DNA of 64,000 nt, taken from contig JBDRCC010000021.1 in the NCBI GenBank assembly GCA_043822065.1, forward strand, positions 1 to 64,000, written 5' to 3'. A model generated the notes under the pieces. The model had not been told where the DNA came from, made no database searches, and saw only the letters and a program-made list of their open reading frames with translations. The translations under genes and the position numbers were made by a program. This DNA comes from JBDRCC01 sp043822065 [NCBI: archaeon]. Its GTDB lineage: Archaea > Undinarchaeota > CAZHTU01. Numbering within the stretch: the stretch's first letter is position 1; each line of letters begins with the position of its first letter. Below, one piece after another: positions 4,029 through 53,138 of this stretch.

Positions 4029-7000
4029 TCAATAGTCCACCAGACGCTTCTGCTTAACGCCTATCTCCTTCTTTTGCATTTCCCCGAGGACTTTTTTCAT
4101 CTTCCTTTCCCTGTGGAACGAAGACCAGTAATACCCCTCGTCCCTCGTGCCCTTCGCGACAAGGACGACGACCTTCCCCGCCCTAAATCTCGCGGTCCTG
4201 CCCCTCCGCTGTATCGTCCTGAGCGGGCTCGGGACCGGCTCGAAGAACACCACGCAGTCGCACCCGCCGATGTCCAGCCCTTCCTCAGCGACAGAGCTCG
4301 CGACGAGCACGCTGAACTCCCCCTTCTTGAACCTCTCCAGCGTGTGCACCTGCTCCTTCTGGCTCATCCCCTTCTCGGACTTGGCCGCCTGCCCTATCAG
4401 CCTCTCCGCCTTTACCCCGTTCTTCTTGAGCTCCTCGATTATCTTTTTCACGCTGTCCCTGTACTGGGTGAACACGATTATCAGCGAGCGCGGGTTTGCG
4501 GAGAGCTCGCGCGAGACAATCATCTTCAGCCTCGCCATCTTCGGGTGCTCCACACCCGCCTCGTGCAGCGACTTGGTCCTGATGACCGCGTCCATGAACC
4601 GCTCGTTCGAGAAAAGGCTCGCAACCGCGCGCGACTTCCCCTCCTTCAGCCTCCCAAGGTAGCTGTGCGTGGCAGAAATGCCCTGCGTCTCAAGAAGCTC
4701 AAGCGCGTGGTACGCCTTTATCACGCTCGCGACCTTGCTGGCCGCCGCGAACGCTGTCTTCTCCCCTCTAGATATCCTGCCCCTTATCCTTCCCTGGAGC
4801 ATGAGCAGGTCACGCTTGCGCACTTTCGCCAGCTGGGCGCTCTTCAAATATCCCTCATCCCGCAGGAATACCAAATACGGCTTCAGCGACTCCTCAAGGC
4901 TCTTCTTTATTCTCATGAAGCTTTCCGGAAGCTCCACTTCCTCCCAGATGACGTCCGAGCCCTTGACGTACTGCTTCACACCATCGTCCTTCTCCGTCCT
5001 TATCTCGACGTGCCTTATCCTCAGGTTCCTGCAGACAGCTTCTATCGTCTCCTGGTCGCCGCCAGGCGACGCAGTCAGCGCGAGTATCAGCCCGTTCGTT
5101 TCCTTCGCAATGAATACATAAGCATAATCCCCTACTGCCCGGTGCGCCTCGTCAAAAACCACAAGGCTGAATTCGTCCATGCTGAGCCTCCCTGTCAGTA
5201 TGTCGTTCTCAACCACCTGCGGCGTTGCAAAAAATACCTTTCCCCTGCTCCAGACCTCCTTCCGCTCCGCAGGGTTCGTCTTCCCGGTCAGCAAAAACAT
5301 TCCGTCAACATCCATCACATCCTCAAAATACCTCTTGTGCTGGTCAGCCAGCGGCTTCGTGGGTGCGAGGAAAAGAATCTTTTTGTCAGGATTTTTTTCT
5401 ATGATGTATGTAATAAGGAGCAGAGCCAGAGAAGTATTATGGGAAAAGAGGCCTCCATTTTTTCCGGCTATAAAATTTTGTCCATTGTTTATTATTAAGT
5501 CGTACACGTGCTCGGATTTCGCCCTTTCAATGCTCTTTATGGGGTCCCAAAGAATTGGTGCCTCGACGAGATTTTTTAAATCTTCTACCTCTTTTCTGCA
5601 ATCCACCGCCCTGCCATATACATTCAACACAAACTCAATCATCCTCACCAATTTTTCAGTTTTTGGATTTGGGGTCCAGTATATCTCTGACTTCCTTAAA
5701 TTCCATTTAGAAACTCTCAGCCGGTGCCGTACCCTCTCAAGCGTCTCAATTGTGCGGGGATGAGAAATAACACTACCTCCCCTCGATTTCACCAGTTCTC
5801 TCTCTAAAAACTTCACATCCTCTCCGAGTTTCTCCATTTCACTTATTCTTTCCTCAAAAACAGAAAAAATACATCTCGCAACCCCTCTTGATGGGCGTTT
5901 CTCGCCACGCTCGTAGATGTCTATGGTAGGAAGAGGGAAATCCTTGTATGCTGTTGTTTTCAGTAGCAATTTCTCTCTTATGCCTCGGATCTTTTTACTT
6001 ACCGGAATGACATCAGTGTTCGTGTTTTCCTTCTTCCCATCGTCCATAATGGCGCGCAATCTTTTCTTTTTCTCTTCGATCTCAAAACCAATATTGCTCT
6101 CAAATCTTTTAAGGCTGGTTCTCCCGCTTATCCTCATCACATAATACTGCCTTTTTTTTGGCGCCAGCGAATTACTCGCCCAAGCCACCTTTTTTTTGAC
6201 CCGCGCCCGTAATCCAAAACGCAGCAACAAGTAACACATCTGGGAGATCAATTGCTCGCTCGCACTTGTTAATTCAATAGTACCATCTCCCCTAATATTA
6301 CCTTCTCCATCATACATAGCTCTAAGAAAAGCAGAAACAACATTATCCGGCGCAGATAAAACACACTCTGGTACTTTTTTCTCTCTCGAGTGCGAGCCGC
6401 TCTGCATGCCGAACTGATACTTAAGGAAGTATACCAGCGCAGAGCATCTTAAGCACAAACCGCCTTTTATGCGCTCAGCCCTCACGCCAAAAATTTTTTT
6501 CGATAATCGGTCAAATTTCCTTAAAATAACTTTATCCTTATTGAAAAAATCTATGCTTCCGGCCATTCTGCCCTCTGCGATTATCATCCCGACCAACCAA
6601 GCCAAATCAGGCGTCAGCCTCCAAACAGGGCGTAGCACTTTCAAATTCATACGACCCCCACTCACAAAAACTCCCCTCAAATTTTCTTTGACCAAATCAT
6701 CCGGCAGATTTCTTTCCCTTGCATCGTCTATTCTGTAGGTTTTTTTGCGGTTCGCATCTTTTAAAACACAATAAAAACTACAGTTTACCAATTTAGATGG
6801 AAACAACCTAAAGAAGTCTATCTTTGTTTCAGTTCCCCCAATCTCTATCTTCAATGGTACGGCAACATGATCGGACACCCCTAAGTTCTTAGCTGACTTC
6901 CAGTAAGTTTGTCCATCCGCGATAGTTAATAGTGGGTGCTCTGGTGTGACGGTCACCTCAGCGCCACTTTCAGTTACAATCTTCAATAATGAATTGGATT

Positions 7001-7328
7001 TCAATCTACAGCACCCAGTAACTCCTTTGCTTTTGATGTGCCAGTCATTAAGCGAATAAACAGTAGCATCGCCGTATAATTTTACCTCCCCCCCTATACT
7101 ATTAATCTTAAATTTCTCGCCCTCGCTTTCATGGAAAATATCTCCAATCGCCTTTAACCCCCCATTTCCTAAAAGAACTACATCTTCCGGAGCGTGGCAT
7201 TTTCCTAAACCGGTTGGCAAGACTACAAGGGAATTTTTATCCAAAATGGAGCATAGAAGTTCTTCTTGGTATAGTCTTGACTCTATCTTATTTTTCTTGA
7301 TTAGTCTATGCTCTACAAACTTAACCAT
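4029..7328 (-). CDS. hef: Hef-type SF2 helicase interrupted by an intein
   Basis: This 1099-residue precursor yields an extein of about 511 residues after removal of a 588-residue intein (residues 44-631). The extein is a Hef/FANCM-like fork-remodelling helicase. It has Walker A PTGLGK/T split by the intein, DEAH box VVFDEAHRA, motif III LALTASPGG and motif VI QRRGRTARF. It lacks the usual C-terminal nuclease, which is the separate gene at 2763-3434. The first 43 codons and roughly the first 25 codons after the intein are AT-rich like the intein, while the rest is GC-rich, so foreign flanking sequence appears to have come in with it. A TTTAAAA box at 7351-7357 gives a leaderless start. Splicing is required for a working ATP site. 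Confidence 0.92.
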   Translation of the reverse strand: MVKFVEHRLIKKNKIESRLYQEELLCSILDKNSLVVLPTGLGKCHAPEDVVLLGNGGLKAIGDIFHESEGEKFKINSIGGEVKLYGDATVYSLNDWHIKSKGVTGCCRLKSNSLLKIVTESGAEVTVTPEHPLLTIADGQTYWKSAKNLGVSDHVAVPLKIEIGGTETKIDFFRLFPSKLVNCSFYCVLKDANRKKTYRIDDARERNLPDDLVKENLRGVFVSGGRMNLKVLRPVWRLTPDLAWLVGMIIAEGRMAGSIDFFNKDKVILRKFDRLSKKIFGVRAERIKGGLCLRCSALVYFLKYQFGMQSGSHSREKKVPECVLSAPDNVVSAFLRAMYDGEGNIRGDGTIELTSASEQLISQMCYLLLRFGLRARVKKKVAWASNSLAPKKRQYYVMRISGRTSLKRFESNIGFEIEEKKKRLRAIMDDGKKENTNTDVIPVSKKIRGIREKLLLKTTAYKDFPLPTIDIYERGEKRPSRGVARCIFSVFEERISEMEKLGEDVKFLERELVKSRGGSVISHPRTIETLERVRHRLRVSKWNLRKSEIYWTPNPKTEKLVRMIEFVLNVYGRAVDCRKEVEDLKNLVEAPILWDPIKSIERAKSEHVYDLIINNGQNFIAGKNGGLFSHNTSLALLLITYIIEKNPDKKILFLAPTKPLADQHKRYFEDVMDVDGMFLLTGKTNPAERKEVWSRGKVFFATPQVVENDILTGRLSMDEFSLVVFDEAHRAVGDYAYVFIAKETNGLILALTASPGGDQETIEAVCRNLRIRHVEIRTEKDDGVKQYVKGSDVIWEEVELPESFMRIKKSLEESLKPYLVFLRDEGYLKSAQLAKVRKRDLLMLQGRIRGRISRGEKTAFAAASKVASVIKAYHALELLETQGISATHSYLGRLKEGKSRAVASLFSNERFMDAVIRTKSLHEAGVEHPKMARLKMIVSRELSANPRSLIIVFTQYRDSVKKIIEELKKNGVKAERLIGQAAKSEKGMSQKEQVHTLERFKKGEFSVLVASSVAEEGLDIGGCDCVVFFEPVPSPLRTIQRRGRTARFRAGKVVVLVAKGTRDEGYYWSSFHRERKMKKVLGEMQKKEIGVKQKRLVDY
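5436..7199 (-). mobile_element. Intein with LAGLIDADG homing endonuclease in the hef Walker A motif
   Basis: The insert begins with Cys1 (CHAPEDVVLL) after PTGLGK and ends with GLFSHN before Thr+1, so the Walker A lysine and threonine are its splice neighbours. Both splicing blocks are recognisable: VTPEHPLL resembles block B and NFIAGKNGGLFSHN matches the C-terminal blocks, with terminal His-Asn. A dodecapeptide endonuclease core lies between, with LAWLVGMIIAEG (about residue 240 of the precursor) and FLRAMYDGEG (about 330). It looks intact, so it may still splice and home. Its base composition is far more AT-rich than the host genes. Walker A motifs of ATPases are favoured intein sites. Confidence 0.9.
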
Positions 7329-9609: not shown

Positions 9610-10908
9610 TTAATAGAAAATTGGTGTATGGCTTAGTTTATCCAATACTTTCCTCGCCTTTTTGGTCATCCTGTACCTTTGTAGAGTTTTCCCCTGTAGT
9701 TTATTCAGCTCGCCTCCACGAATGTATGCGCTCCTTTCGGTTGTCCTCAAATAGCCACCTATAGCCAATTTAGAAAGCCATTTTTCACCCCATCGCCTAC
9801 TAAAACCGGATTGTTTCGAGAGTAGATACTTGTCCACATAACCTTTTTCGTTTTCTACGCAAGCCACATTAGCAATGGCGCGTTCTAAGCCACACCTGAC
9901 ATAGTCATTTTTTAATTTTCTTAGTAATCGCGTCAATCTTTCTTCTTTATCATTATCCGAGAATCCAACCAGTTGTTGGTATCTAATAAGATTGTTCCTG
10001 CGCTGAACACAAATACCCCAATATGTTGAAAAATATGTTGTTCCATCCCTTTGAAAGACTCTTTTCCCAGTTAGGTGTATCCTGCAAGCCCCGATCTCAA
10101 GCTCGCCTAACATAGCCTTTACGTCTTTAAGCAACTCCGGGGCCCATTTCGTATTTTTTTGCGGGTTCTCCAAGATACCCCCAAAAATTCGCTTATCCAC
10201 ATACCTTCCGAGCTTTAATCCAACATAATACGCACTTTTTCCAGAGGAAACGGTTCCTTCATCAGTAAAGAACTGTTTCAAAAATTCTTTTTTTACATCC
10301 TCGCTTGCAATACGTATAAAAAAAGGCACTCTTGGGTTTGTTTCTCCCTTAGCCCCCCCTCTTAAACCAAGTCTTGCGAGTATCCTCCCAGCAATCGTTG
10401 GAAAATTCACAGTATAATGCGCCGGATCCTCTACTAACTCTATCCCCCCAAAAATCTCTCGGCTGGCTTCCATTATTTTTTTTCTCGCCGCCTTTTTAGT
10501 ATTCGTGTAGCTTACTCCACCCCCTCTTTTTATAGTTCCGTCCCCTAAAACAGCCGCAATAAAACATGCGCCTGCACTGTTTTTCAGTTCAAACGGGAGT
10601 TTTGGGTCCCTTATGCCTTTCCCCGTCCGCGTGCCTATCCATTCAACAGCGTCTTCAAATCGCCTGGGGAATATTTTTTTGAATTCTTCTAGTCTAGATA
10701 GTTTCTTAATGGTAGATAGGGCAACCCGGTCATACAAATAAATCCCCCCCACAACGGATTGCGGTAGCCCGGTCCTTTTTTCAATTTCGGCGCGACTATA
10801 CCTTTTTTTTAATGATTGTCTAAATCTGTCGTAGGTTTTTCTTTTGGGTATTATGTAGGTAGTGCTGGCAGGAAGTTCCCAAAGGCGGACTTTACCATTA
10901 GCTGACAT
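9610..10908 (-). CDS. Free-standing LAGLIDADG homing endonuclease
   Basis: This 432-residue protein has two dodecapeptide motifs: ACFIAAVLGDGTI (about residue 113) and FLKQFFTDEGTV (about 214). Each carries the catalytic acidic residue of the DOD endonuclease family. An N-terminal helical region with a helix-turn-helix look (SRAEIEKRTGLPQSVV) and a C-terminal winged-helix-like region (about 350-432) flank the core. It is not an intein: no splice residues at either end. It is strongly AT-rich, unlike its neighbours, so recently acquired. It diverges from tatD with only 31 bases between start codons, and the tatD promoter overlaps its own start. Confidence 0.85.
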   Translation of the reverse strand: MSANGKVRLWELPASTTYIIPKRKTYDRFRQSLKKRYSRAEIEKRTGLPQSVVGGIYLYDRVALSTIKKLSRLEEFKKIFPRRFEDAVEWIGTRTGKGIRDPKLPFELKNSAGACFIAAVLGDGTIKRGGGVSYTNTKKAARKKIMEASREIFGGIELVEDPAHYTVNFPTIAGRILARLGLRGGAKGETNPRVPFFIRIASEDVKKEFLKQFFTDEGTVSSGKSAYYVGLKLGRYVDKRIFGGILENPQKNTKWAPELLKDVKAMLGELEIGACRIHLTGKRVFQRDGTTYFSTYWGICVQRRNNLIRYQQLVGFSDNDKEERLTRLLRKLKNDYVRCGLERAIANVACVENEKGYVDKYLLSKQSGFSRRWGEKWLSKLAIGGYLRTTERSAYIRGGELNKLQGKTLQRYRMTKKARKVLDKLSHTPIFY

Positions 10909-13067: not shown

Positions 13068-14584
13068 AGGCAATTGCTCTATCTGCAATCCTCATTATCG
13101 CGCTTTTTTCAGCCATTGCCATAGCTGCTGTCTTAGGGGACAAGGACTACTGCAGCACGGCAGTTTGCTCCGCTGGCGAGGGGGACTGCGATTCCGACTC
13201 CCAGTGCGCATCCGGCCTGGTATGTGCGATAAACAGCGGCTCTAATTATGGCATGCCTCAAAACTATGATGTCTGCATAAACCCAGCGGTATTTGATGCC
13301 GTGGGCGGAGCCTACAATGGCAATGAGGCGTACTGCAGTCTGAAGGCCCTTGTGGGGCAGAAATGCGCCGAGGGGCAGGGCGACTGCGACTCGGACGACG
13401 AGTGCCAAAGCGGATTAATCTGCGCCCTTGACATAGGCGGGAGGGTTTTCGGCGTTGGCGAGGAGAAAACCGACGTGTGCACCGCCCCGGCAAACCTCCA
13501 GAGCGGCGACATGGACTTCTGCAGGGCGAGGGTTCTCCTTGGGCAGAAATGCGCCGAGGCCGAGGGCGACTGCGACTCTGACGCCGAGTGCATCAGCGAC
13601 GCTGAGCACAACACCACATGCGTCCCAGACAACGGCGCGAAATTCGGCTTCCTTGGCCATATCGATGTTTGCGCAACGCCGACTACGCCGGAGACCAAGC
13701 CACCAGTCCAAAACGGGACCCAGCCAACGTCAAACATCACACGGACCGACTACACCACCTCAACAACCCCCAGCATTATCCACAATCGCGTTTTCTCAAT
13801 CTTCTACGACCCAGGCACCGAGAAGATGTTCGTCGGGCAAGAAATATCCGGTGTCGCAGTCATCGACCTCACCGACAACTCACGAGCAGTTTACCGCGCA
13901 TCCACAACCCCCGGGCTTGATGGTCTAGGGGATGCCGTCCGTTCGGTCTTCTACGACCCAGGCACAGAAAAAATGTTCGTCGCGGTAGAGCTAGCAGGCG
14001 TAGCCGTCATCGACTTTACAGACGGCTCAGAAGCCTACTACACAACCACCACAACCCCAGGGGTTATTAACATGTGGGCCACCTCAGTCTCCTACGACCC
14101 AGGCACCGAGAAAATGTTTGTGGGAACCCAGGATGGATTAACAGTCATCGACCTCACCGACAATTCAACAACCAACTACAGGACCACCACAACCCCCGGT
14201 ATTCTTCATAACATTGTCTGGTCGGTCTCCTACGACCCAGGCACCGAGAAAATGTTCGTCACGACAGGGAGCGGAGTAACCGTCATCGACCTCACCGACA
14301 ATTCAACAACCAACTACAGGACCACCACAACCCCCGGAATTATTAACGATTGGGTCCTTTCGCACTTCTACGACCCGACAACCGAGAAATTGTTCGTAGG
14401 CACGGTACTAGGACTAACCGTCATCGACCTCACCGACAACTCAAGGACAGACTACACAACCTCCACAACCCCCGGAATTATTAACAATCTCGTCAAGTCG
14501 GTCTCCTACGACCCAGGAAGCGATCGAATGTTCGTCGGAACACAGCTGGGCGTAACCGTCATAAGCTTCGGGGAGGCGCCATAA
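13064..14584 (+). CDS. Secreted Cys-rich and beta-propeller-repeat protein
   Basis: This 506-residue protein has a clear signal peptide (hydrophobic ALSAILIIALFSAIAIAA). Three Cys-rich modules follow (about 25-205), each with a GDCDSD--C--GL-C core, seen in many secreted microbial proteins. The C-terminal half (about 225-506) holds six repeats of 46-49 residues built on YDPGTEKMFVG and GVTVIDLTDNS, consistent with a six-bladed propeller. The repeats are nearly identical at DNA level, a sign of recent unit duplication. It is likely cell-surface or exported; ligand unknown. It overlaps its neighbours on both sides by a few bases. Confidence 0.75.
   Translation: MKAIALSAILIIALFSAIAIAAVLGDKDYCSTAVCSAGEGDCDSDSQCASGLVCAINSGSNYGMPQNYDVCINPAVFDAVGGAYNGNEAYCSLKALVGQKCAEGQGDCDSDDECQSGLICALDIGGRVFGVGEEKTDVCTAPANLQSGDMDFCRARVLLGQKCAEAEGDCDSDAECISDAEHNTTCVPDNGAKFGFLGHIDVCATPTTPETKPPVQNGTQPTSNITRTDYTTSTTPSIIHNRVFSIFYDPGTEKMFVGQEISGVAVIDLTDNSRAVYRASTTPGLDGLGDAVRSVFYDPGTEKMFVAVELAGVAVIDFTDGSEAYYTTTTTPGVINMWATSVSYDPGTEKMFVGTQDGLTVIDLTDNSTTNYRTTTTPGILHNIVWSVSYDPGTEKMFVTTGSGVTVIDLTDNSTTNYRTTTTPGIINDWVLSHFYDPTTEKLFVGTVLGLTVIDLTDNSRTDYTTSTTPGIINNLVKSVSYDPGSDRMFVGTQLGVTVISFGEAP
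13803..14560 (+). repeat. Six tandem propeller-blade repeats of about 138-147 bp
   Basis: The phrase TACGACCCAGGCACCGAGAA or a close variant recurs at about 13804, 13951, 14092, 14230, 14369 and 14506. Each is followed about 45 bases later by a copy of GTCATCGACCTCACCGACAA or a close variant. Such nucleotide identity means the repeat number can change by recombination. Confidence 0.8.
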
Positions 14585-14943
14585 TGGGGCGCCGCTTACC
14601 TTGCATGCCAAAGCACAAGCGGGCAGCCATCGAAATAGAGACCGTAGTAGTGCTTTCCCTTGCCGTCATAGTCCTGCTACTCGTCGGGGTATTTTTTTCC
14701 GGGGGCTTACGCGCCGCCGGCTCCAAACTCCTGAAGTTTTCAGATACGGCGGTCGGCAACACGGCTGAAAAAGGGAGCGCAATCAGTTGCAATTTCTGGT
14801 GCTTAGATGTTGTTGCTGGGCTGGATGTCAGAAAGCTGCGGCCCCTCAGCTGCATGTGCCCAGGCGAGGACGCGGATGTTCTCCTGCGGGAGGGCGCGTT
14901 AGAAAATAATGAAGGCGGAACCCTGACTGACGAAGACCTGTAG
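14584..14943 (+). CDS. Pilin-like single-pass membrane protein
   Basis: This 119-residue protein has a basic N-terminus (KHKRAAIEIET) leading directly into one hydrophobic helix (VVVLSLAVIVLLLVGVFFSGGL). The IEIET-hydrophobic arrangement is typical of archaeal pilin-like or type II pseudopilin N-termini. The extracellular part has four cysteines in two C-x3-C-like pairs (SCNFWC and SCMCPG), so disulfides are possible. No peptidase cleavage site is certain. It follows the propeller gene with a one-base overlap and may be its membrane partner. Confidence 0.6.
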   Translation: MGRRLPCMPKHKRAAIEIETVVVLSLAVIVLLLVGVFFSGGLRAAGSKLLKFSDTAVGNTAEKGSAISCNFWCLDVVAGLDVRKLRPLSCMCPGEDADVLLREGALENNEGGTLTDEDL

Positions 14944-37070: not shown

Positions 37071-37820
37071 TTACTGCTTCAGCTGCCGGTACAGCTCTGT
37101 CTTGAACCCGCCCAGCAGCACCCTGAAATACGCATAAATTACCCCGAACAGGGCAAACCCTACAACCATATTCGGCAGGTAGGGGTACGTAATCCAGACG
37201 CTCCCAAAAGCAAGCTCGTATACCACAACGCTTGGCACAAGGGCTATCGCAGGAATAGCCGCCGCAAAAATAGCGAGAAGCATCAGGACGTTATAGGCCA
37301 TCCAGTCCCAGAATATCTTCGCCTTCTGCCCTTTGAACTGCATGTAAGAGTCTATGACTATGTCGGCGTAGTCCTTCTTTATCAGCGCGCCGTGCTGGTA
37401 GGAGAAGAATAGCGGCACCCCCACAAACAGCCACAGCATTCCACCATACGTCGGAATGAATGTTATGAATACAAAATACCCAACCGCCAGGCTCAGCGTC
37501 ACAGCCGTGAACGTCGGGTAATGCGCCCTGAACCCGTCCCAGCTCTTTCGGAGGCTTTCCGCCCTCCCGCCGAAATACTGGTTCGCATTCCTGATTATGA
37601 CTCCCTCCAGTGCGATGTATGCCAGCACTGCCGCAGCCCCGCATGCCATAAAAACCAGCCCGGCCGCCACCGACGCTTCCATAGACGCCACTGCCCTCGA
37701 AATGAACAGGAGCCCTCCAAGCGCGAAAAAAGAAAGCGTGAACAATACGGCGTACGGCGCCATCCTCTCCCGGCTGTGGGCGTATGTCACCGCCCGCCTT
37801 ATCGCAGTCCTGTACCTCAT
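37071..37820 (-). CDS. Polytopic membrane protein
   Basis: This 249-residue protein has about six hydrophobic helices (YAVLFTLSFFALGGLLFI, VAAGLVFMACGAAAVLAYIAL, FTAVTLSLAVGYFVFI and more) and a basic N-terminus. ATG at 37820 is chosen; the longer frame runs into the next gene. No family recognised with certainty. Its last eight residues and stop are duplicated downstream around a hairpin element, leaving the gene intact. Confidence 0.65.
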   Translation of the reverse strand: MRYRTAIRRAVTYAHSRERMAPYAVLFTLSFFALGGLLFISRAVASMEASVAAGLVFMACGAAAVLAYIALEGVIIRNANQYFGGRAESLRKSWDGFRAHYPTFTAVTLSLAVGYFVFITFIPTYGGMLWLFVGVPLFFSYQHGALIKKDYADIVIDSYMQFKGQKAKIFWDWMAYNVLMLLAIFAAAIPAIALVPSVVVYELAFGSVWITYPYLPNMVVGFALFGVIYAYFRVLLGGFKTELYRQLKQ

Positions 37821-37858
37821 TATGCTAATTGAATCTAAAAACTCATATTTAAAGCCAG

Positions 37859-38404
37859 CTAAGCTAGCACCAGCATGACGTACGGCGCAAACGAGCGGAA
37901 CATCACGAAATTCCAGACGATGTGCGTCAGCACGAACTTGGCGCAGCCTGCCGGGCTGTGCCCGGTGAAAACGTACACCCCGCATATCACCACATCATAA
38001 ATTACAGTCACCAGGACCCCGAGCGCAAGGATGCCCCCCACATTCAGCATCCCTGCCAGGAACCCTGCGAGCAGGAACCCGAAAACGCCTATCAGCACGT
38101 CGTCAGGCCTCTCCCTTGTGAAAAACCATGACAGCGCCATCGCAGCAGCGCCAACAAGGCCGCCAAGCATCGCGCCCTCCGACACAGCGGTGCAGACTGT
38201 AAAAAGCATTATCATTTCTATCCCGATGTCCCCGCCTGCGAACCTCTGCGGGACCCTGCTCAGCGCCCCGATCGCTACCATCAGCAGCAGCGCCCCCCCG
38301 AACTTCAGCTGGGCGCCGAACGTGTAGAACAGAAAGGCGATGAGCAAGGCTGCCGTCCCGGCTACCGCCCCAATGACCACCAGCGGCCGTTCTAGTATCC
38401 CCAT
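37859..38404 (-). CDS. Polytopic membrane protein
   Basis: This 181-residue protein has six hydrophobic helices (VVIGAVAGTAALLIAFLFY, FGGALLLMVAIGALS, MIMLFTVCTAVSEGAMLGGLVG and so on). No motif or family recognised. It precedes the 249-residue membrane gene on the same strand by 38 bases and is divergent from the ferredoxin-ATPase fusion, so a role alongside that unusual ATPase is possible but unproven. Confidence 0.65.
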   Translation of the reverse strand: MGILERPLVVIGAVAGTAALLIAFLFYTFGAQLKFGGALLLMVAIGALSRVPQRFAGGDIGIEMIMLFTVCTAVSEGAMLGGLVGAAAMALSWFFTRERPDDVLIGVFGFLLAGFLAGMLNVGGILALGVLVTVIYDVVICGVYVFTGHSPAGCAKFVLTHIVWNFVMFRSFAPYVMLVLA

Positions 38405-38539
38405 TTTAGCCTTTATATATTTCAGAACTCACCGGATTTATATGGTTGGCGAAAAAGGCGTATTCCAGGATGGGATTTGCAGGGCTGGCAATCCTGCCAG
38501 CGAAAGCCTGCGCCGCTCCGCCACCCCTTTTGGAACAAA

Positions 38540-40219
38540 ATGATAGGTCTAAACGAGGCAGCCTGCGACTCATGCGGAATCTGCGCAATGGCGTGCCAGC
38601 GGCACGGCATCCAGCTTGCCGGATTCCCAAACCTCTGCCGCCACTGCGAGGACCCGCCCTGCCTCGGCTGCGGCGCCATGCGGCTGGAGGGCGCTGTGGT
38701 TGTCATCGACCAGAGCATGTGCGGCGGCTGCGGCGAGTGCGCCAAGCGCTGCCCCTACGGCGCAATAACCCTAACCAAAGGAAAGGCGTGGAAGTGCGAC
38801 CTCTGCTACCCGGAGCTCAAGCCGAAGTGCATCCCAGCCTGCCCAGAGAACGCCCTGTACGTCATTTCCGCCGAAAGGGAAAGCCCGCTCGGCTGGGGCT
38901 TCCAGCCGCTCTCGGATTCCTTCATAAGAAAAACCCTCGAGCGCACTGACAAAGACGCAGTCTTCATTGACACAAAGGGCGACATCCGCTATTTCTACAC
39001 TGGCTTGTCCGAGCTGACCCAGCAGGAGGAGGGGGTATTCCGGGCGGTCTCTTCGCTTTTCAAGGAGCTCGCAAGGCGCGAGATGCTCTCGCCCCCGCTG
39101 TCAGGCGAAAACCCACTCGCCGCCAGAAAGGAAATCCGCACCAAGGTCTCCACCCTCCTCGCAGACCACCTCGTGCGGCACTCCAAGCCATTCCCTCCTG
39201 AAAGGAGCGAGAACCTAGCCGAGATAATCACTTCCTCCGTCGGAGGCAACCTCGGCCCGCTGGACTTCCTACTGTACAACGACAGGTTTGAGGAAGTGAC
39301 ATTAAACGGCATCGGCGAGAAGCTCTTCGCCAAGCACAAGGAATACGGAAGAATCGAGACGAATTTTTTCTTCAGGAGCGCGGAATACGCAAAGGAGAAC
39401 ATCGTCAACCGGATAGCCGACTTCGTCGGGGAGCCAAACCTTTCTGAAAAGAACCCAATCCTCCCGGCGACCCTCCCTAACGGCGACAGGCTCCACGCCC
39501 TGCTGTACCCCGTCGTCGGCTCCATAGCATTTACAATCCGCCACTTCCCGAAGAAAAACCTCACCCTCGAAGACCTGATAGCCTCCGGCACAATCTCCAA
39601 AGGCGCAGCCGAATACCTAAAAAAAATCATGGAGTCTGGCAAGACAGTCTTCTTCGTCGGCGCCACCGGCACAGGAAAGACAACCCTGCTCAACGCCCTC
39701 CTGAAATACGTCCCGCCGGACAGGCGCATCCTCTCCCTGGAAGAGGTCAGGGAGATACACCCCCCGCACAAGGACTTCCTCCACCACCAGGCAAGGAAGT
39801 CGCAGGGAATCGGCATGCAGCAGCTGATTGAGTCGAGCCTCAGGGAGACGCCGGACCGCGTCGTCATCGGCGAGGTCAGGACAGAGGCGGAAATCCGCGC
39901 CTTCCTCTCCCTAGCCCAGGCTGGCCCGGGCGAGGCTTCGTATGCCACGTTTCACGGCGAGACGCTCGAGACCGCAATCCGGAGGCTGAAACACTACGGC
40001 ATCTCCGAAGTCGACCTGCCTGGTGCCATACACCTTCTAGTCCTCCTCACGCGCAGGCATGAGTACGACAGGAAGCTGAACAAAAGCCGGACTGCCCGCT
40101 ACGTCGCGGAAATCGCAGAGCTCAAAGACGACGCGTCCCTCAACAAAATCTTTGTTTTCAAGGCCAGGGCAAAACGGCTCGAGAGGACCAAGAGCAAATC
40201 AATTCTGCTCGACCAGTAA
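38540..40219 (+). CDS. Four-cluster ferredoxin fused to a type II/IV secretion ATPase
   Basis: This 559-residue protein has two parts rarely joined. Residues 1-105 carry 16 cysteines in four groups (9-12-15-19, 33-36-41-44, 61-64-67-71, 86-89-97-101), like the electron-transfer subunits of molybdoenzymes and hydrogenases (LCRHCEDPPC, CGGCGECAKRCPYGAI). A helical linker follows. Residues about 215-540 form a VirB11/GspE/TadA-type ATPase with Walker A GATGTGKTTLL (about 373), SLEEVREIH, and Walker B RVVIGEVRTEAE (about 440). No frame break separates them, so the fusion is real at the sequence level. No pilin platform gene is adjacent. The start is ATG 38540; 63 upstream bases stay open. Redox control of a secretion or pilus motor is a hypothesis. 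Confidence 0.88.
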   Translation: MIGLNEAACDSCGICAMACQRHGIQLAGFPNLCRHCEDPPCLGCGAMRLEGAVVVIDQSMCGGCGECAKRCPYGAITLTKGKAWKCDLCYPELKPKCIPACPENALYVISAERESPLGWGFQPLSDSFIRKTLERTDKDAVFIDTKGDIRYFYTGLSELTQQEEGVFRAVSSLFKELARREMLSPPLSGENPLAARKEIRTKVSTLLADHLVRHSKPFPPERSENLAEIITSSVGGNLGPLDFLLYNDRFEEVTLNGIGEKLFAKHKEYGRIETNFFFRSAEYAKENIVNRIADFVGEPNLSEKNPILPATLPNGDRLHALLYPVVGSIAFTIRHFPKKNLTLEDLIASGTISKGAAEYLKKIMESGKTVFFVGATGTGKTTLLNALLKYVPPDRRILSLEEVREIHPPHKDFLHHQARKSQGIGMQQLIESSLRETPDRVVIGEVRTEAEIRAFLSLAQAGPGEASYATFHGETLETAIRRLKHYGISEVDLPGAIHLLVLLTRRHEYDRKLNKSRTARYVAEIAELKDDASLNKIFVFKARAKRLERTKSKSILLDQ

Positions 40220-41590: not shown

Positions 41591-42588
41591 TGGACTACCG
41601 CCAGGCAGGAGTAGACATCAAAAAGGAAAACGCCTCAATCTCTACGATGGTCTCGGCCCTGCAGAAGACCTTTGCAGAGCGCAAGGGAAAGCTCGGGGAG
41701 GTCATCGACCTCGGAGACTACTTCGCTAACCTAATTGACATCGGGAACGGCAAGGCGCTTGCAATGTCAACCGACGGAGCCGGCTCCAAGGTGATAATTG
41801 CCGAGCTGCTTGACGACTACACCACAGTCGGGATAGACATGGTCGCGATGAACGTCAACGACATCATCTGCACCGGCGCCGAACCGATTGCACTCGTCGA
41901 CTACTACGCAGTCGAGGAGATAAATGAAAGGCGCTCGCTTGAAATCGCCCAGGGCGTCGCCAGGGGCTCAATCGAGGCAGGCGTCGCCGTCATCGGCGGC
42001 GAGACTGCAAGCCTCCCGGACACAATCAAGGGCGCAAAGCCGAAGACGGGCTTCGACATCGCCGGGACCGCCATCGGAATCGTCGACAAGGACAAGATAA
42101 TCGACGGCAAGAAGGTCAAGCCAGGGGACGCAATCCTCGGGCTCGCGTCATCCGGCATACACTCAAACGGGCTGACACTTGCACGGAAGGTCCTCGACCT
42201 CTCGGACAAAAAAACCCTCCGGGAGCTCCTGACCCCGACGAGGATTTACGTCAAGCCAATACTCAAGCTCCTCAAGTCCTGCGAGGTCCACGGCCTTGCC
42301 CACATCACGGGTGGCGGGCTGAACAAGATACGCAGGCTCAACAAGAACTACGGCGTAGACATACCAAGCCCGCGCAAGCCGCAGAAGATATTCCAGGAAA
42401 TCCAGAAAAAGGCAGGCATCTCTGAAGCTGAGATGTACCGGACGTTCAACATGGGGACCGGCTTCGCAGTTGTGCTCCCTGAGTCAGAGGTCGCATCAGC
42501 GAAAAAGCTTCTCTCCGCCCTTGACCCGATGGTCATCGGCTCTGTAATCAGGGAAAAGGCAATCTACCTGCGGGGCGAGAAGGCATAA
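41590..42588 (+). CDS. purM: Phosphoribosylformylglycinamidine cyclo-ligase (AIR synthetase)
   Basis: This 332-residue ATP-dependent enzyme makes aminoimidazole ribonucleotide. The start is the ATG overlapping the purB stop (ATGA type). Motifs include STDGAGSKV (about 62), the VNDIICTGAEP loop, and IGGETASLPD. The C-terminal HITGGGLNKI and FNMGTGFAVVLP are typical of PurM. It sits between purB and purO, each joined by one-base overlaps, so the three are translated as a unit. Confidence 0.93.
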   Translation: MDYRQAGVDIKKENASISTMVSALQKTFAERKGKLGEVIDLGDYFANLIDIGNGKALAMSTDGAGSKVIIAELLDDYTTVGIDMVAMNVNDIICTGAEPIALVDYYAVEEINERRSLEIAQGVARGSIEAGVAVIGGETASLPDTIKGAKPKTGFDIAGTAIGIVDKDKIIDGKKVKPGDAILGLASSGIHSNGLTLARKVLDLSDKKTLRELLTPTRIYVKPILKLLKSCEVHGLAHITGGGLNKIRRLNKNYGVDIPSPRKPQKIFQEIQKKAGISEAEMYRTFNMGTGFAVVLPESEVASAKKLLSALDPMVIGSVIREKAIYLRGEKA

Positions 42589-43682
42589 TGTACGCCGGCA
42601 GAGTCGTTGCAGTAGGCAAGACCTCCGCGCCATTTGTCTGCTACAGGGTTTCCTCCAACTCGTTCCCTGACCGCGCGGCAAAAATATCGCGCGGCAAGGT
42701 GAAAATCTCACTCAAGCCGGGAATCAAGACATCCAACCAATACGTCGAGTACAACTGCATAGCCAAAGTCGGCAAAGCCGTCATCGCCTCAAACGGGAAA
42801 CACACCGACCTCATAGCCAAAAATTTCAGCTCAGGCATGCCCATGAAGGAGGCAATTTATTCCGCACTCAGCAGGATGGGCTACGAAAAGGACGGGCACA
42901 ACACCCCGCGGATTGCGGGCGCGTTCCTCGGCAGCAAAGGCTATCTTGGCATCATCCGAAAGGGCGGAATTGAAATCCAGGAGTTCCCCCTGCGGGCAGG
43001 CTCGTGCAGGATTGTCTCGACAAATTCGTTTACCTCCCTCTCCGAAAACGAGTACGCATTCGAAGCCGCTGACGCAAAGGACTGCGCCCGCTTCATCTCC
43101 GAAGGGCACTTCTTCTGCAAGCTCAAGAGCTTTGTCTGCTCCGCGGCATACCTCGGCGGGTATTCAACCTACAACCCAAACGTGCCAACCCCAGCCCAGG
43201 CGCTCGCCCTCCTAAAGAAAGCAGGCTGCTCCCAGAAGGTCATCCTCCACTGCAAAACCGTCAGGCGCATCGCCCTAAAGCTCCTTGACAAATACCGGAT
43301 AAAGGCAGACCGCCAGCTCGTTGAAACCGGCTCGCTCCTGCACGACATCGGCAGGGCTAAGGACCACGGCATCCAGCACGGGCTCTACAGCTATCAAGCC
43401 CTCCGTGAGCTTGACCTCCCGCTTGAAATATGCCTCATCGCGCTCCACCACGTCGGCTCGGGAATCGACAGGCAGACCGCGGTCGAGCTCGGCCTACCTC
43501 CCGCGGACTACTCCCCCATCACGACTGAGGAAAAGCTTGTCTGTTTCGCCGACATCCTCGCCAGGGGCGACACGGAGCTTTCGTACGAGGAAGCCCTTGA
43601 GGCGGACTCCCTGAAGTTCGGCAAGAATTCCAAATACATCCGCAAAATGAAGGCTCTCCACTGCGAACTCACGGGCAAATAG
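42588..43682 (+). CDS. purO: PurO-type IMP cyclohydrolase fused to an HD domain
   Basis: This 364-residue protein has two domains. The first (about 1-205) is the archaeal IMP cyclohydrolase PurO (YAGRVVAVG, SSNSFPDR, ASNGKHTDLI, YLGGYSTYNP), which closes the purine ring in the last step to IMP. The second (about 215-364) is an HD-type metal phosphohydrolase, with TGSLLHDIGRAKDHG, LALHHVG-like histidines, and CFADILARGD. PurO is normally a single domain of about 200 residues, and archaeal HD proteins of this type are usually separate. The fusion suggests a nucleotide-clearing or regulatory activity coupled to IMP. It begins one base before the purM stop. Confidence 0.88.
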   Translation: MYAGRVVAVGKTSAPFVCYRVSSNSFPDRAAKISRGKVKISLKPGIKTSNQYVEYNCIAKVGKAVIASNGKHTDLIAKNFSSGMPMKEAIYSALSRMGYEKDGHNTPRIAGAFLGSKGYLGIIRKGGIEIQEFPLRAGSCRIVSTNSFTSLSENEYAFEAADAKDCARFISEGHFFCKLKSFVCSAAYLGGYSTYNPNVPTPAQALALLKKAGCSQKVILHCKTVRRIALKLLDKYRIKADRQLVETGSLLHDIGRAKDHGIQHGLYSYQALRELDLPLEICLIALHHVGSGIDRQTAVELGLPPADYSPITTEEKLVCFADILARGDTELSYEEALEADSLKFGKNSKYIRKMKALHCELTGK

Positions 43683-50474: not shown

Positions 50475-51665
50475 CTAAATAATAAACTTAAACAGCAGCT
50501 TCCCAAGCTTCGGGCTCTTCTTTATCAGCGTCTTAACCGCCGCGGTCTTTCCATCCATCATGTCCAGCACCGTCTTTGTGTCAAAGACAGTAGCCAATTG
50601 GTCAATCTCCGCGTCGTTCAGCGAGGCGGCTATCTTCTGGAGCCTTAAGTGCCTCTTGAATGTCTTTCCATATGCGCTGTCCCATAACGCCTTGTACTCG
50701 TCAAGCCGCGTCTTCGAAACGTCCCCCTTTTCGAGCGCTTTGGCTCCGACTTCAGCCGCTATGCTCCCAGCGCCCATTGCAAACGCTATCCCGCCGCCGT
50801 GTATCGGGCTTACCTGCCTTGCCGCGTCACCGACAACCACTAGGCCATCGGTCGCAAACTCCTTTGACACGCCTCCGACCGGTATCCCCCCTCCATTTAC
50901 CTCCACTATCGAGCCATCTCCGTACCCGTGCTGCTTTACCCACCTGTCAAGGTAGTACTTTGCATTTTTTTCAGAGGCAGCGTTTATCCCTATGCCCACG
51001 TTGGCGACGTCCTTTCCCTTTGGGAAGACCCAGATGTACCCGCTCGGCGCGATGCTGTTCCCAATGTAGAACTCAAGGACCTCGTGGTCCTGGATATCTA
51101 TCCCTGCCATCTCGTACTGGAACCCGGAATCAAAAGTTTCAAGCTTTTCAGCTGTGTCTATCCCTGCCCACCTTGCGACCTTGGAGTCCACGCCGTCTGC
51201 CGCGACAGTCAGCCTCGCCCTGACTTCAAATTCCTCGCCGAAGCGGTCGCAGTTTATGCCCTCGATGCCGTTCTTTCCCTTCAGGACCCCGGTGCACCTG
51301 ACCTTTGCCTGGACTTCAGCGCCAGCCCTCGCAGCCTCTATGGCAAGGTACTTGTCAAACATCTTCCGCTCAAGCAGGTAGCCGCACAGCGCGTCGTCGG
51401 TCTTGTCCTTTAGCGTGAGCCTTGTCCCGTTCGGGCTGATGAGCGACATGCCGTATATGTTGTTCGCGATGTGGTTCCCCTTCTCTGGTATGCCGAACCT
51501 CTTGAAGTGGGCCTTCGCAAGGCCTTCGCCGCACCTCACCGGCGCACCTATCTCCTCGCGCTTGTCAATGCATAATACCGATAGCCCCTTCTCTGCAAGC
51601 TTCTTCGCGGCGTATGTGCCGCCTGGGCCTGCGCCAACGACTGCAACATCGTACTCATCCTTCAT
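50475..51665 (-). CDS. Geranylgeranyl reductase-family flavoprotein
   Basis: This 396-residue FAD-dependent reductase has the dinucleotide-binding start VAVVGAGPGGTYAAKKLAEKG, then PVRCGEGLA, LTVAADGVDSKVARWAG and VGDAARQVSPIHGGGI. This is the pattern of archaeal digeranylgeranylglycerophospholipid reductase, which saturates membrane lipid chains. The ferredoxin gene immediately upstream (11-base overlap) is a likely electron donor. Its 3' end is duplicated beyond the stop around a hairpin element. Confidence 0.93.
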   Translation of the reverse strand: MKDEYDVAVVGAGPGGTYAAKKLAEKGLSVLCIDKREEIGAPVRCGEGLAKAHFKRFGIPEKGNHIANNIYGMSLISPNGTRLTLKDKTDDALCGYLLERKMFDKYLAIEAARAGAEVQAKVRCTGVLKGKNGIEGINCDRFGEEFEVRARLTVAADGVDSKVARWAGIDTAEKLETFDSGFQYEMAGIDIQDHEVLEFYIGNSIAPSGYIWVFPKGKDVANVGIGINAASEKNAKYYLDRWVKQHGYGDGSIVEVNGGGIPVGGVSKEFATDGLVVVGDAARQVSPIHGGGIAFAMGAGSIAAEVGAKALEKGDVSKTRLDEYKALWDSAYGKTFKRHLRLQKIAASLNDAEIDQLATVFDTKTVLDMMDGKTAAVKTLIKKSPKLGKLLFKFII

Positions 51666-51834
51666 ACTTTATCGCCCCCACCGGGCAGAACTTCTCGCAA
51701 ACCCTGCAGTTGATGCAGTAATCATAGAAAACTATCCCCTCTTCAAGCAGCTCGTTCGCGTTCTTCGGGCAGACCGAGACGCAGCCCCCGCACTTCAGGC
51801 ATTTCCGCCTGTCAACCCGCATCTTGCTCTTCAT
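51655..51834 (-). CDS. Two-cluster [4Fe-4S] ferredoxin
   Basis: This 59-residue ferredoxin has CLKCGGCVSVCPKN and CINCRVCEKFCPVG, two complete C-x2-C-x2-C-x3-C-P motifs. ATG 51834 overlaps the aspS stop by one base (TAATG). A longer N-terminal reading exists but belongs to the aspS frame shadow. It overlaps the lipid reductase start by 11 bases, indicating translational coupling, and fits as its electron donor. Confidence 0.92.
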   Translation of the reverse strand: MKSKMRVDRRKCLKCGGCVSVCPKNANELLEEGIVFYDYCINCRVCEKFCPVGAIKYEG

Positions 51835-53138
51835 TACGGCGTCAGCCTCTTCATGTCGCGCGGGAATGCTATGCACTCCCTCACGTTTGAAACCCCAGTA
51901 AGCACCATGACAAGCCTGTCCCCGCCAAGCCCCCATCCGGCGTGCGGCGGCATCCCCCAGTCGAACGCCTTGAGGTGGTGCTCGAAGTCTGCAGGGTCGT
52001 TCCCATGCTTTTTCAGGCTCTCAAGCAGCATTTCCCTTTCGTGTATCCTCATCCCGCCTGAGGCAAGCTCTATCCCCCCGAAGTCGAAGTCAAACGACCT
52101 CGAAAGCTTCGGCTTGTCTGCCGGCATTATGTAGAACGGCTTTATGTCCGCAGGATAATTTGTTATGAAGAACGGCCCCTTTACATTCTCCCCGAGCGCC
52201 TTCTCGGACTCGGTGTCTATGTCGTCCCCGAACTTCAGCTTCTTGCCGGACTTGTCCAGGATTTCGAGCGCCTCCTCATAGGTCACGCGCCTGTACGGCG
52301 GCTTTGGTATGTCAAGCTCCCTGCCGAGCATCTTCAGCTCCTCGGCGCAGCCCTCCCTCACCTTCGTGACTATGTGGTAGAACATGTTTTCGAGCGCCTT
52401 CATCGCATCCTCGTCGTCCCCGAAGGCGAGCTCAATATCAATCCCAGTGAACTCAGAGATGTGCCTGACTGTGTCAGACGGCTCAGCCCTGAAGAAGGGC
52501 GCAATCTCGTAAACCCTGTCGAAGCAGCTGGTGAGTATCTCCTTGTAAAGCCGCGGCGACTGGCTAAGGTAAGCCTGCTGGTCGAAGTATGAAATCGGGA
52601 AGAGCGTAGCCCCGCCCTCCGCCCCTGCCTTTATTATCTTCGGGGTGTGGACCTCTATGAACCCTTCGCCGGACAGGTACTCCCGTGCTGCGTCGAACAC
52701 CTTGTCCCGTATCTTGAATATCGCAAGTATCTCCGGGCGCCGCAGGTCGACTGCCCTGGCGTTCAGCCGCGTGTCCAAGTCCGCCGGCGTTATCCCGGTG
52801 ACGTCAAGCGGCAGCTGGCGCTGGGCAGTGTTTATTATCCTTATTTCCTGCGGTATTATCTCAATCCCGCGCTTGGCAATCTTGCTCGCCTGCGCCTTCC
52901 CCTTGACCGCGACGACGAACTCCCGCCCAAGCTGCTTTATCTTTTCGGTTATCTCCTGCGGGACTTCCTCCCTCTTGGCGGTTATCTGCGCAATCCCCGA
53001 CCTGTCCCTGAGCAGGAAGAAGTTTATCTTTCCGAGGAGCCTGACCTCGTGGACCCATCCCATGAGGATGACGTCCTGGCCTGCCCTGACGTCGGCAACA
53101 AAGCATGTCCTCCGCCAGTCCCCCATATTGTCAACCAT
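51834..53138 (-). CDS. aspS: Aspartyl-tRNA synthetase, archaeal type
   Basis: This 434-residue class II synthetase has an N-terminal OB-fold anticodon domain (about 15-100, VILMGWVHEVRLLGKINFFLLRD). The class II motifs follow: FIEVHTPKIIKAGAEGGATLF, APFFRAEPSD and the C-terminal GWGLGGDRLVM. Archaeal length; no bacterial insertion. Whether it also makes Asp-tRNA(Asn) cannot be read directly. It is co-transcribed with the ferredoxin and lipid reductase genes. Confidence 0.95.
   Translation of the reverse strand: MVDNMGDWRRTCFVADVRAGQDVILMGWVHEVRLLGKINFFLLRDRSGIAQITAKREEVPQEITEKIKQLGREFVVAVKGKAQASKIAKRGIEIIPQEIRIINTAQRQLPLDVTGITPADLDTRLNARAVDLRRPEILAIFKIRDKVFDAAREYLSGEGFIEVHTPKIIKAGAEGGATLFPISYFDQQAYLSQSPRLYKEILTSCFDRVYEIAPFFRAEPSDTVRHISEFTGIDIELAFGDDEDAMKALENMFYHIVTKVREGCAEELKMLGRELDIPKPPYRRVTYEEALEILDKSGKKLKFGDDIDTESEKALGENVKGPFFITNYPADIKPFYIMPADKPKLSRSFDFDFGGIELASGGMRIHEREMLLESLKKHGNDPADFEHHLKAFDWGMPPHAGWGLGGDRLVMVLTGVSNVRECIAFPRDMKRLTP

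Follow-up and report, generated by a model that had tools for sequence, protein, structure and literature searches.

The window, that is, the whole analysed stretch of 64,000 nucleotides from archaeal contig JBDRCC010000021.1 (assembly GCA_043822065.1, Undinarchaeota), contains a gene whose product joins a cysteine-rich ferredoxin module to an ATPase of the secretion and pilus superfamily (Table 1). The initial annotation had described sixteen cysteines in four groups and a VirB11/GspE-type ATPase in one uninterrupted frame, and this description is borne out: the open reading frame (ORF) of 559 residues matches both Fer4_11 and T2SSE above the Pfam cut-offs. The best reading of the sequence is that of a genuine gene for a single-chain, putatively iron-sulphur (Fe-S), P-loop ATPase.

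Table 1. Features of the fused gene and of the adjacent genes; positions are those of the window
Feature	Coordinates	Strand	Evidence
Whole fused gene	38540..40219	+	559 aa, stop-free translation
Compact four-group, 16-Cys ferredoxin module, nearest HycB/HydN/DmsB kind (residues 1-108)	38540..38863	+	Fer4_11, Fer4_7, alignment with HycB4 (7qv7_B), cysteine list
N1-type region as in archaeal GspE (residues 109-238)	38864..39253	+	2oap aligned from residue 139; MAFFT with 11 archaeal ATPases
N2 and ATPase core (residues 239-559), stopping short of the C-terminal region of relatives	39254..40216	+	PF00437, fold match 2oap_2, missing tail
Walker A GATGTGKT (residues 374-381)	39659..39682	+	Conserved columns; motif name presumed
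Walker B RVVIGEVR (residues 440-447), including E445	39857..39880	+	Conserved columns; motif name presumed
His-box remnant (residues 464-472), H472 kept, first His absent	39929..39955	+	Conserved columns; motif name presumed
Adenylosuccinate lyase (purB)	from 40259	+	Pfam
AIR (aminoimidazole ribonucleotide)-synthetase-like gene (purM)	likely start 41590, scanned from 41593	+	Pfam
IMP (inosine monophosphate) cyclohydrolase (PurO) and HD domain in one chain	42588-43682	+	Pfam
Divergent upstream membrane protein	37859-38404	opposite to fused gene	
Divergent upstream membrane protein	ORF 37071-37985, likely start 37820	opposite to fused gene	

Integrity of the fused gene

The exact start of the gene is uncertain, as the upstream frame stays open to a TTG at 38477. 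The coding score is positive for frame 1 of the gene in all 14 windows of 40 codons and negative for the other two frames in all 14. The only in-frame ATG, GTG or TTG codons among residues 61-301 are those at positions 156, 182, 212 and 253, and the stretch that separates the cysteine module from residue 156 has no such start codon; together with the coding score, this speaks against two genes. The join of the two parts is best placed near residues 108-118 (38861-38893), because the N1-type sequence begins after it. Had a separate ferredoxin gene and an ATPase gene been wrongly joined in an assembly chimera, one would expect, as is the case, to find no orthologue of the fusion in the collections reached. 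However, the frame, the third-position G+C content (0.70-0.88 across the gene) and the coding score are even over the join, which moreover coincides with the domain border preceding the N1-type region, and this makes a chimera extremely improbable.

The ferredoxin module

The cysteines of the fused protein are those at positions 9, 12, 15, 19, 33, 36, 41, 44, 61, 64, 67, 71, 86, 89, 97 and 101, with none elsewhere, and the span from the first to the last of them is 93 residues. They form the groups C9-x2-C-x2-C-x3-C19, C33-x2-C-x4-C-x2-C44, C61-x2-C-x2-C-x3-C71 and C86-x2-C-x7-C-x3-C101, from which we infer up to four putative [4Fe-4S] clusters per subunit. The Fer4_11 match covers residues 28-108 and scores 40.9 bits (cut-off 26.2). 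In the six frames of the 64 kb, a script counted four occurrences of the motif CxxCxxCxxxC, two in the fused ORF and two in one small separate ferredoxin; given this rarity, the motif in the fused ORF is not due to chance.

The NCBIfam models of electron subunits linked to dimethyl sulphoxide (DMSO), tetrathionate and formate match the module, every one below its cut-off, and the identity of a named subunit is not reached by this measure (DmsB, 42 of 214.1 bits; TtrB, 39 of 416; HydN, 29 of 260). When the PDB sequences were searched with the module only, the top entry was the repeat-rich polyferredoxin MvhB, with seven stretches that add up to 78.4 bits (the best of them, 24.8). It is followed by HycB4 of the hydrogen-dependent CO2 reductase (HDCR), with 64.5 bits and a best stretch of 45.7, and chains of the NarH, FdhB and NrfC types rank lower. 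In the PDB search with the whole protein, HycB4 is aligned over residues 29-78. The HycB4 alignment from the search with the module only sets FPNLCRHCEDPPC against MPIQCRHCEDAPC, with KCDLC and ACPENAL common to both. The HycB4 match spans the second, third and fourth cysteine groups, and the second-group loop C41-x2-C44 is shorter than its HycB4 counterpart.

The ATPase part

The T2SSE match (PF00437) covers residues 299-505 with a score of 94.1 bits (cut-off 24.9). The best PDB matches by sequence include archaeal GspE (2oap) over residues 139-485, FlaI over residues 239-528, and CpaF. The NCBIfam cut-offs for FlaI, TadA and VirB11 proper are not reached (149.7 of 550, 137.5 of 373.15 and 125.7 of 249.95 bits, respectively).

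The set of conserved columns was obtained from eleven archaeal ATPases (taken from 33 locus rows) aligned by MAFFT. Residues 109-238 of the fused protein align on the N1 region of these ATPases, and hence the ferredoxin module replaces the variable N-terminal extension of the comparators. All eleven agree in 62 columns; the fused protein has the same residue in 34 of these, including G374, K380, T381, E401, E405, E445, R447, H472, R317 and R334, and differs in 28, of which 26 are substitutions and two fall into the missing tail. The names Walker A, Walker B and His box, as well as the catalytic roles of the conserved positions, are assumed from the family. The first histidine of the His box is among the 28 changed columns; its absence makes a standard catalytic site less certain, and it is the profile that carries membership in the superfamily.

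The ATPase had initially been called complete, but all eleven comparators extend 50-94 residues past the C-terminal end of the fused protein. Moreover, purB starts 39 bases beyond the stop codon, so that there is no space for a C-terminal tail there.

The AlphaFold2 model of the whole protein has a mean predicted local distance difference test (pLDDT) value of 52.4, with 62-85 per ten-residue block in residues 281-500 and less than 60 in most of the rest. In the fold comparison, the highest score is that of 2oap_2 (Z 26.3, 366 aligned residues, rmsd, that is, root-mean-square deviation, 7.0). This match extends over model residues 159-559, and the confident part of the model within this span is limited to about 281-500. 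The chains of CpaF, FlaI and VirB11 have scores of 23.8-26.0 and are practically tied with 2oap_2. None of the fold-search rows shown (Foldseek, VIA) is an Fe-S protein, which is to be expected at the pLDDT of about 30 in the module and says nothing about the module itself.

Search for relatives

The same domain pair had been suggested as something to look for elsewhere. No second fused ferredoxin-ATPase was found in the collections reached, that is, genome contigs (where the method detects close relatives only), viral contigs, plasmids, phages and the matches listed for 194 whole genomes. In the genome contigs, 71 stretches matched a peptide of the fused protein and one relative was confirmed, locus L001. 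It is not a fusion: a separate ferredoxin of 208 residues is followed by an ORF of 602 residues, presumably an aldehyde oxidoreductase. The module shares 36% identity with this separate ferredoxin, in an alignment that pairs 15 of the 16 cysteines.

Among the viral contigs, the fused-protein query was confirmed in none of 18 cases and the ferredoxin queries in none of 68 and none of 6. The ATPase profiles yielded 7 of 178 and 8 of 555 stretches, with seven contigs common to both and all matches starting at query residue 238 or later. At least 5000 plasmid records match the fused protein, none covering 80% of the query among the matches listed; 36 phage records match, and again none covers 80%. 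As for the whole genomes, 189 of 194 have a match at E 0.001, and none of the matches listed begins before query residue 111, those to the Fe-S part only being mostly outside the listed ones. The CxxC motif N-terminal of the ATPase match is present at none of the 33 comparator ATPase loci (32 distinct genes, as L010 and L035 are the same). A further gene of the window, the ORF 51834-53138, presumably encoding aspartyl-tRNA synthetase, reaches at most 51% among the matches listed for the searched genomes, hence no close relative was reached among them.

The tree was built from 48 ATPase cores, with 37 archaeal ATPases beside the fused protein among the tips. The branch of the fused protein is the second longest of the 48, and the node uniting it with the 37 archaeal ATPases has a support of 0.46; this is a long-branch placement, and we claim no clade. 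The nearest to the fused protein in the tree are loci L076-L083. Six of these, L076-L081, contain short ATPases (open frames of about 411-417 residues), before which lies a divergent gene resembling TadC (22-39 bits).

Gene neighbourhood and the pilus platform

The initial annotation assumed a secretion or pilus motor, with the two divergent upstream membrane proteins as its possible platform. The neighbourhood lends no support to this assumption, as the genes downstream are purB, purM and PurO-HD, and no TadC (T2SSF) gene was found in the window. The Kyte-Doolittle count of hydrophobic segments is 6 in one of the two divergent neighbours and 4 in the other. Neither belongs to a Pfam family above the cut-off, the only trace being one sub-threshold match to DUF6249 (E 0.064). 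In particular, there is no T2SSF match, and hhalign against a 20-member TadC profile gives a probability of 0.1% for the ORF at 37071 and 0.2% for that at 37859, a weak test with a single sequence on one side. Neither gains support as the pilus platform.

Pfam scans of 56 distinct window proteins, a part of the window ORFs, yielded no T2SSF domain. At the same time, the gene directly after the ATPase has a T2SSF match in all of 20 hand-picked high-scoring archaeal loci. These loci were used to build a TadC hidden Markov model (HMM), and the window was searched with it as six-frame stop-to-stop segments of at least 60 residues. At 32 of 34 comparator loci (12 of 14 without the 20 building loci), the model detects a TadC gene next to the ATPase; it misses L082 and L088, and the L088 locus breaks off at its contig end. 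In the window, there is no match at E up to 0.1. Compared with 32 of 34 comparators, this weakens the reading of the fused protein as a pilus motor. The ATPase HMM, whose alignment includes the fused protein, finds in the window the fused gene only.

As regards pilins, the window was covered by the Pfam scans. A short ORF at 14584-14943 on the plus strand has a hydrophobic leader that may be read as pilin-like, with no Pfam match. A defence system was considered and rejected, since PADLOC gave just weak P-loop matches (the best, 22.2 bits). The sigma-70 and terminator scan is uninformative for archaeal DNA.

Possible functions of the fused protein

Within the secretion ATPase superfamily, the fused protein is probably an orphan that has been repurposed. 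The chances seem about even that it is such an ATPase with a putative Fe-S redox or docking input. The 28 changed columns and the second-longest branch in the tree speak for this reading. The ferredoxin module takes the place of the variable N-terminal extension of archaeal GspE-like proteins, and the protein would form a ring, presumably a hexamer, like its relatives. The [4Fe-4S] clusters, up to four per subunit, would serve as a redox-sensitive or partner-docking input controlling the ATP-driven movement of the ring, and the ring would act on a partner other than a classical pilus platform encoded beside the gene. A bolder version, which we consider highly doubtful, is that the ring ATPase has left pilus biology and become an ATP-coupled redox machine with six subunits and up to 24 [4Fe-4S] clusters, where ATP hydrolysis drives, or is gated by, the movement of electrons.

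The main competitor is a genuine motor for type IV pili or secretion, whose TadC platform and pilins are encoded elsewhere and whose Fe-S module switches assembly with the redox state. The best sequence and fold matches, being archaeal GspE, CpaF, FlaI and VirB11, agree with such a motor, and so does the pilin-like short ORF, if its leader is read correctly. However, the TadC gene seen at almost all comparator loci was not found in the 64 kb, the C-terminal region and one histidine of the His box are missing, and the scores stay below the cut-offs of the proper FlaI, TadA and VirB11 families, so that we regard a motor of this kind as rather unlikely. The clusters might also be a structural element or a mechanical hinge with no redox role, as in ABCE1. 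Such a role could suit the very compact module with its shortened loop, but the module retains the four-group arrangement of electron-transfer subunits, and a hinge could presumably do with fewer clusters, hence this variant is clearly unlikely. Finally, the ring could hydrolyse ATP to pass low-potential electrons via the ferredoxin modules to a partner enzyme. The module does resemble electron-transfer subunits of hydrogenases, formate dehydrogenases and HDCR; however, there is no oxidoreductase gene among the annotated direct neighbours, we know of no precedent in the secretion ATPase superfamily, and ATP-driven electron transfer appears very improbable.

Several observations weigh against the repurposed ATPase with an Fe-S input. 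By summed score, the module is closest to the repeat-rich polyferredoxin MvhB, and its first cysteine group is matched to HycB4 by just 1.9 bits. The AlphaFold2 model of the module alone, made from a two-row alignment, is unusable (mean pLDDT 35.9), and that of the whole protein has a moderate confidence for the core only. Cluster binding and ATP hydrolysis are both predictions from sequence. As the fusion is a single sequence with no orthologue found, selection on it cannot be shown. Further, the TadC HMM gives distant TadC proteins (L076-L081, L083) just 22-39 bits, and a very divergent platform would thus be missed; the platform could also be encoded elsewhere in the genome, outside the 64-kb window. 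The comparator loci come from 194 genomes reached through one centre, which biases both the conserved columns and the TadC pattern to that group.

If confirmed, the repurposed ATPase with an Fe-S input would couple a ring motor ATPase directly and physically to the redox state of the cell. Other archaeal secretion ATPases have been described with cysteine-rich N-terminal domains, which would then deserve re-examination as possible metal or Fe-S sites rather than disulfides, and there would be a concrete candidate for the role of the orphan, pilin-less archaeal secretion ATPases.

Other genes of the window

The archaeal origin of the window is seen from an archaeal signal recognition particle (SRP) RNA and from genes of the aTrm56, Cdc6/Orc1 and geranylgeranyl reductase types. 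The small ferredoxin (51655-51936, minus strand), with its two CxxCxxCxxxC motifs, lies directly before the geranylgeranyl reductase gene (50475-51665, minus strand), and the two plausibly form an electron-donor/reductase pair. The helicase gene at 4029-7328 on the minus strand (DEAD/ResIII, Helicase_C) is interrupted by an intein, which contains splicing and LAGLIDADG domains and is inserted beside a stretch that we read as the helicase Walker A. The ORF of 432 residues at 9610-10908 on the minus strand has a weak, sub-threshold LAGLIDADG match.

Comparison with known systems

The fused protein shares with archaeal GspE (2oap), FlaI (4ii7/4ihq) and CpaF/TadA (9e24, 8rjf) the N1-N2-core order, the Walker A and B motifs and other invariant positions. 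Unlike them, it has an added N-terminal ferredoxin module and lacks the C-terminal region and one His-box histidine, and no TadC was found beside it. Subunits of the HycB/HydN/DmsB type with four clusters, such as HycB4 (7qv7_B), likewise have 16 cysteines in four groups, and the words CRHCEDxPC and KCDLC...ACPENAL are common to HycB4 and the fused module. In contrast to these subunits, the module is compact, with a shortened second-group loop, a weak match in the first group and an attached ATPase. Ferredoxins are joined to P-loop ATPases also in ABCE1 and in MinD-type ATPases with an inserted ferredoxin; these belong to different ATPase families and have fewer clusters than predicted for the fused protein.

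The initial annotation knew of no described protein with this pairing. The literature searched indeed yielded no description of a ferredoxin joined to a secretion ATPase; what the claim loses, in view of the cysteine-rich N-terminal domains discussed below, is some of its force. Apparently, known domains form here a combination that was not found described, in a gene that looks orphan. The available parts of PMC10547907 and PMC9012536 contain nothing on the pairing, and the survey of archaeal gene fusions and fissions (PMC11237513) has, in the part available, no main-text word beginning with secretion or pilus.

The nearest precedent is provided by archaeal ATPases with cysteine-rich N-terminal domains described by Makarova et al. 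2016 (PMC4858521), here compared through excerpts of that article. In these, the archaeal secretion ATPases of subclade 4F often begin with an N-terminal domain that is variable and rich in cysteines. In arCOG05558 of subclade 4D (Pyrobaculum, Thermoproteus), the C-terminal domain is absent and the small N-terminal domain contains conserved cysteines. The arCOG05558 loci are two-component ones, with no pilins and with a protein of 4-5 transmembrane (TM) segments. The authors suggest that the N-terminal cysteines possibly form disulfides and that the role is possibly a non-pilus one. What sets these ATPases apart from the fused protein is the reading of their cysteines as possible disulfides. 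The 4D loci contain a 4-5 TM partner, and the divergent neighbours of the fused gene count 6 and 4 hydrophobic segments. An extra N-terminal cysteine domain is described for subclade 4F and arCOG05558 and is seen in the fused protein, and arCOG05558, likened by description rather than by sequence, may resemble the fused protein also in the absent C-terminal domain and the loci said to be pilin-less.
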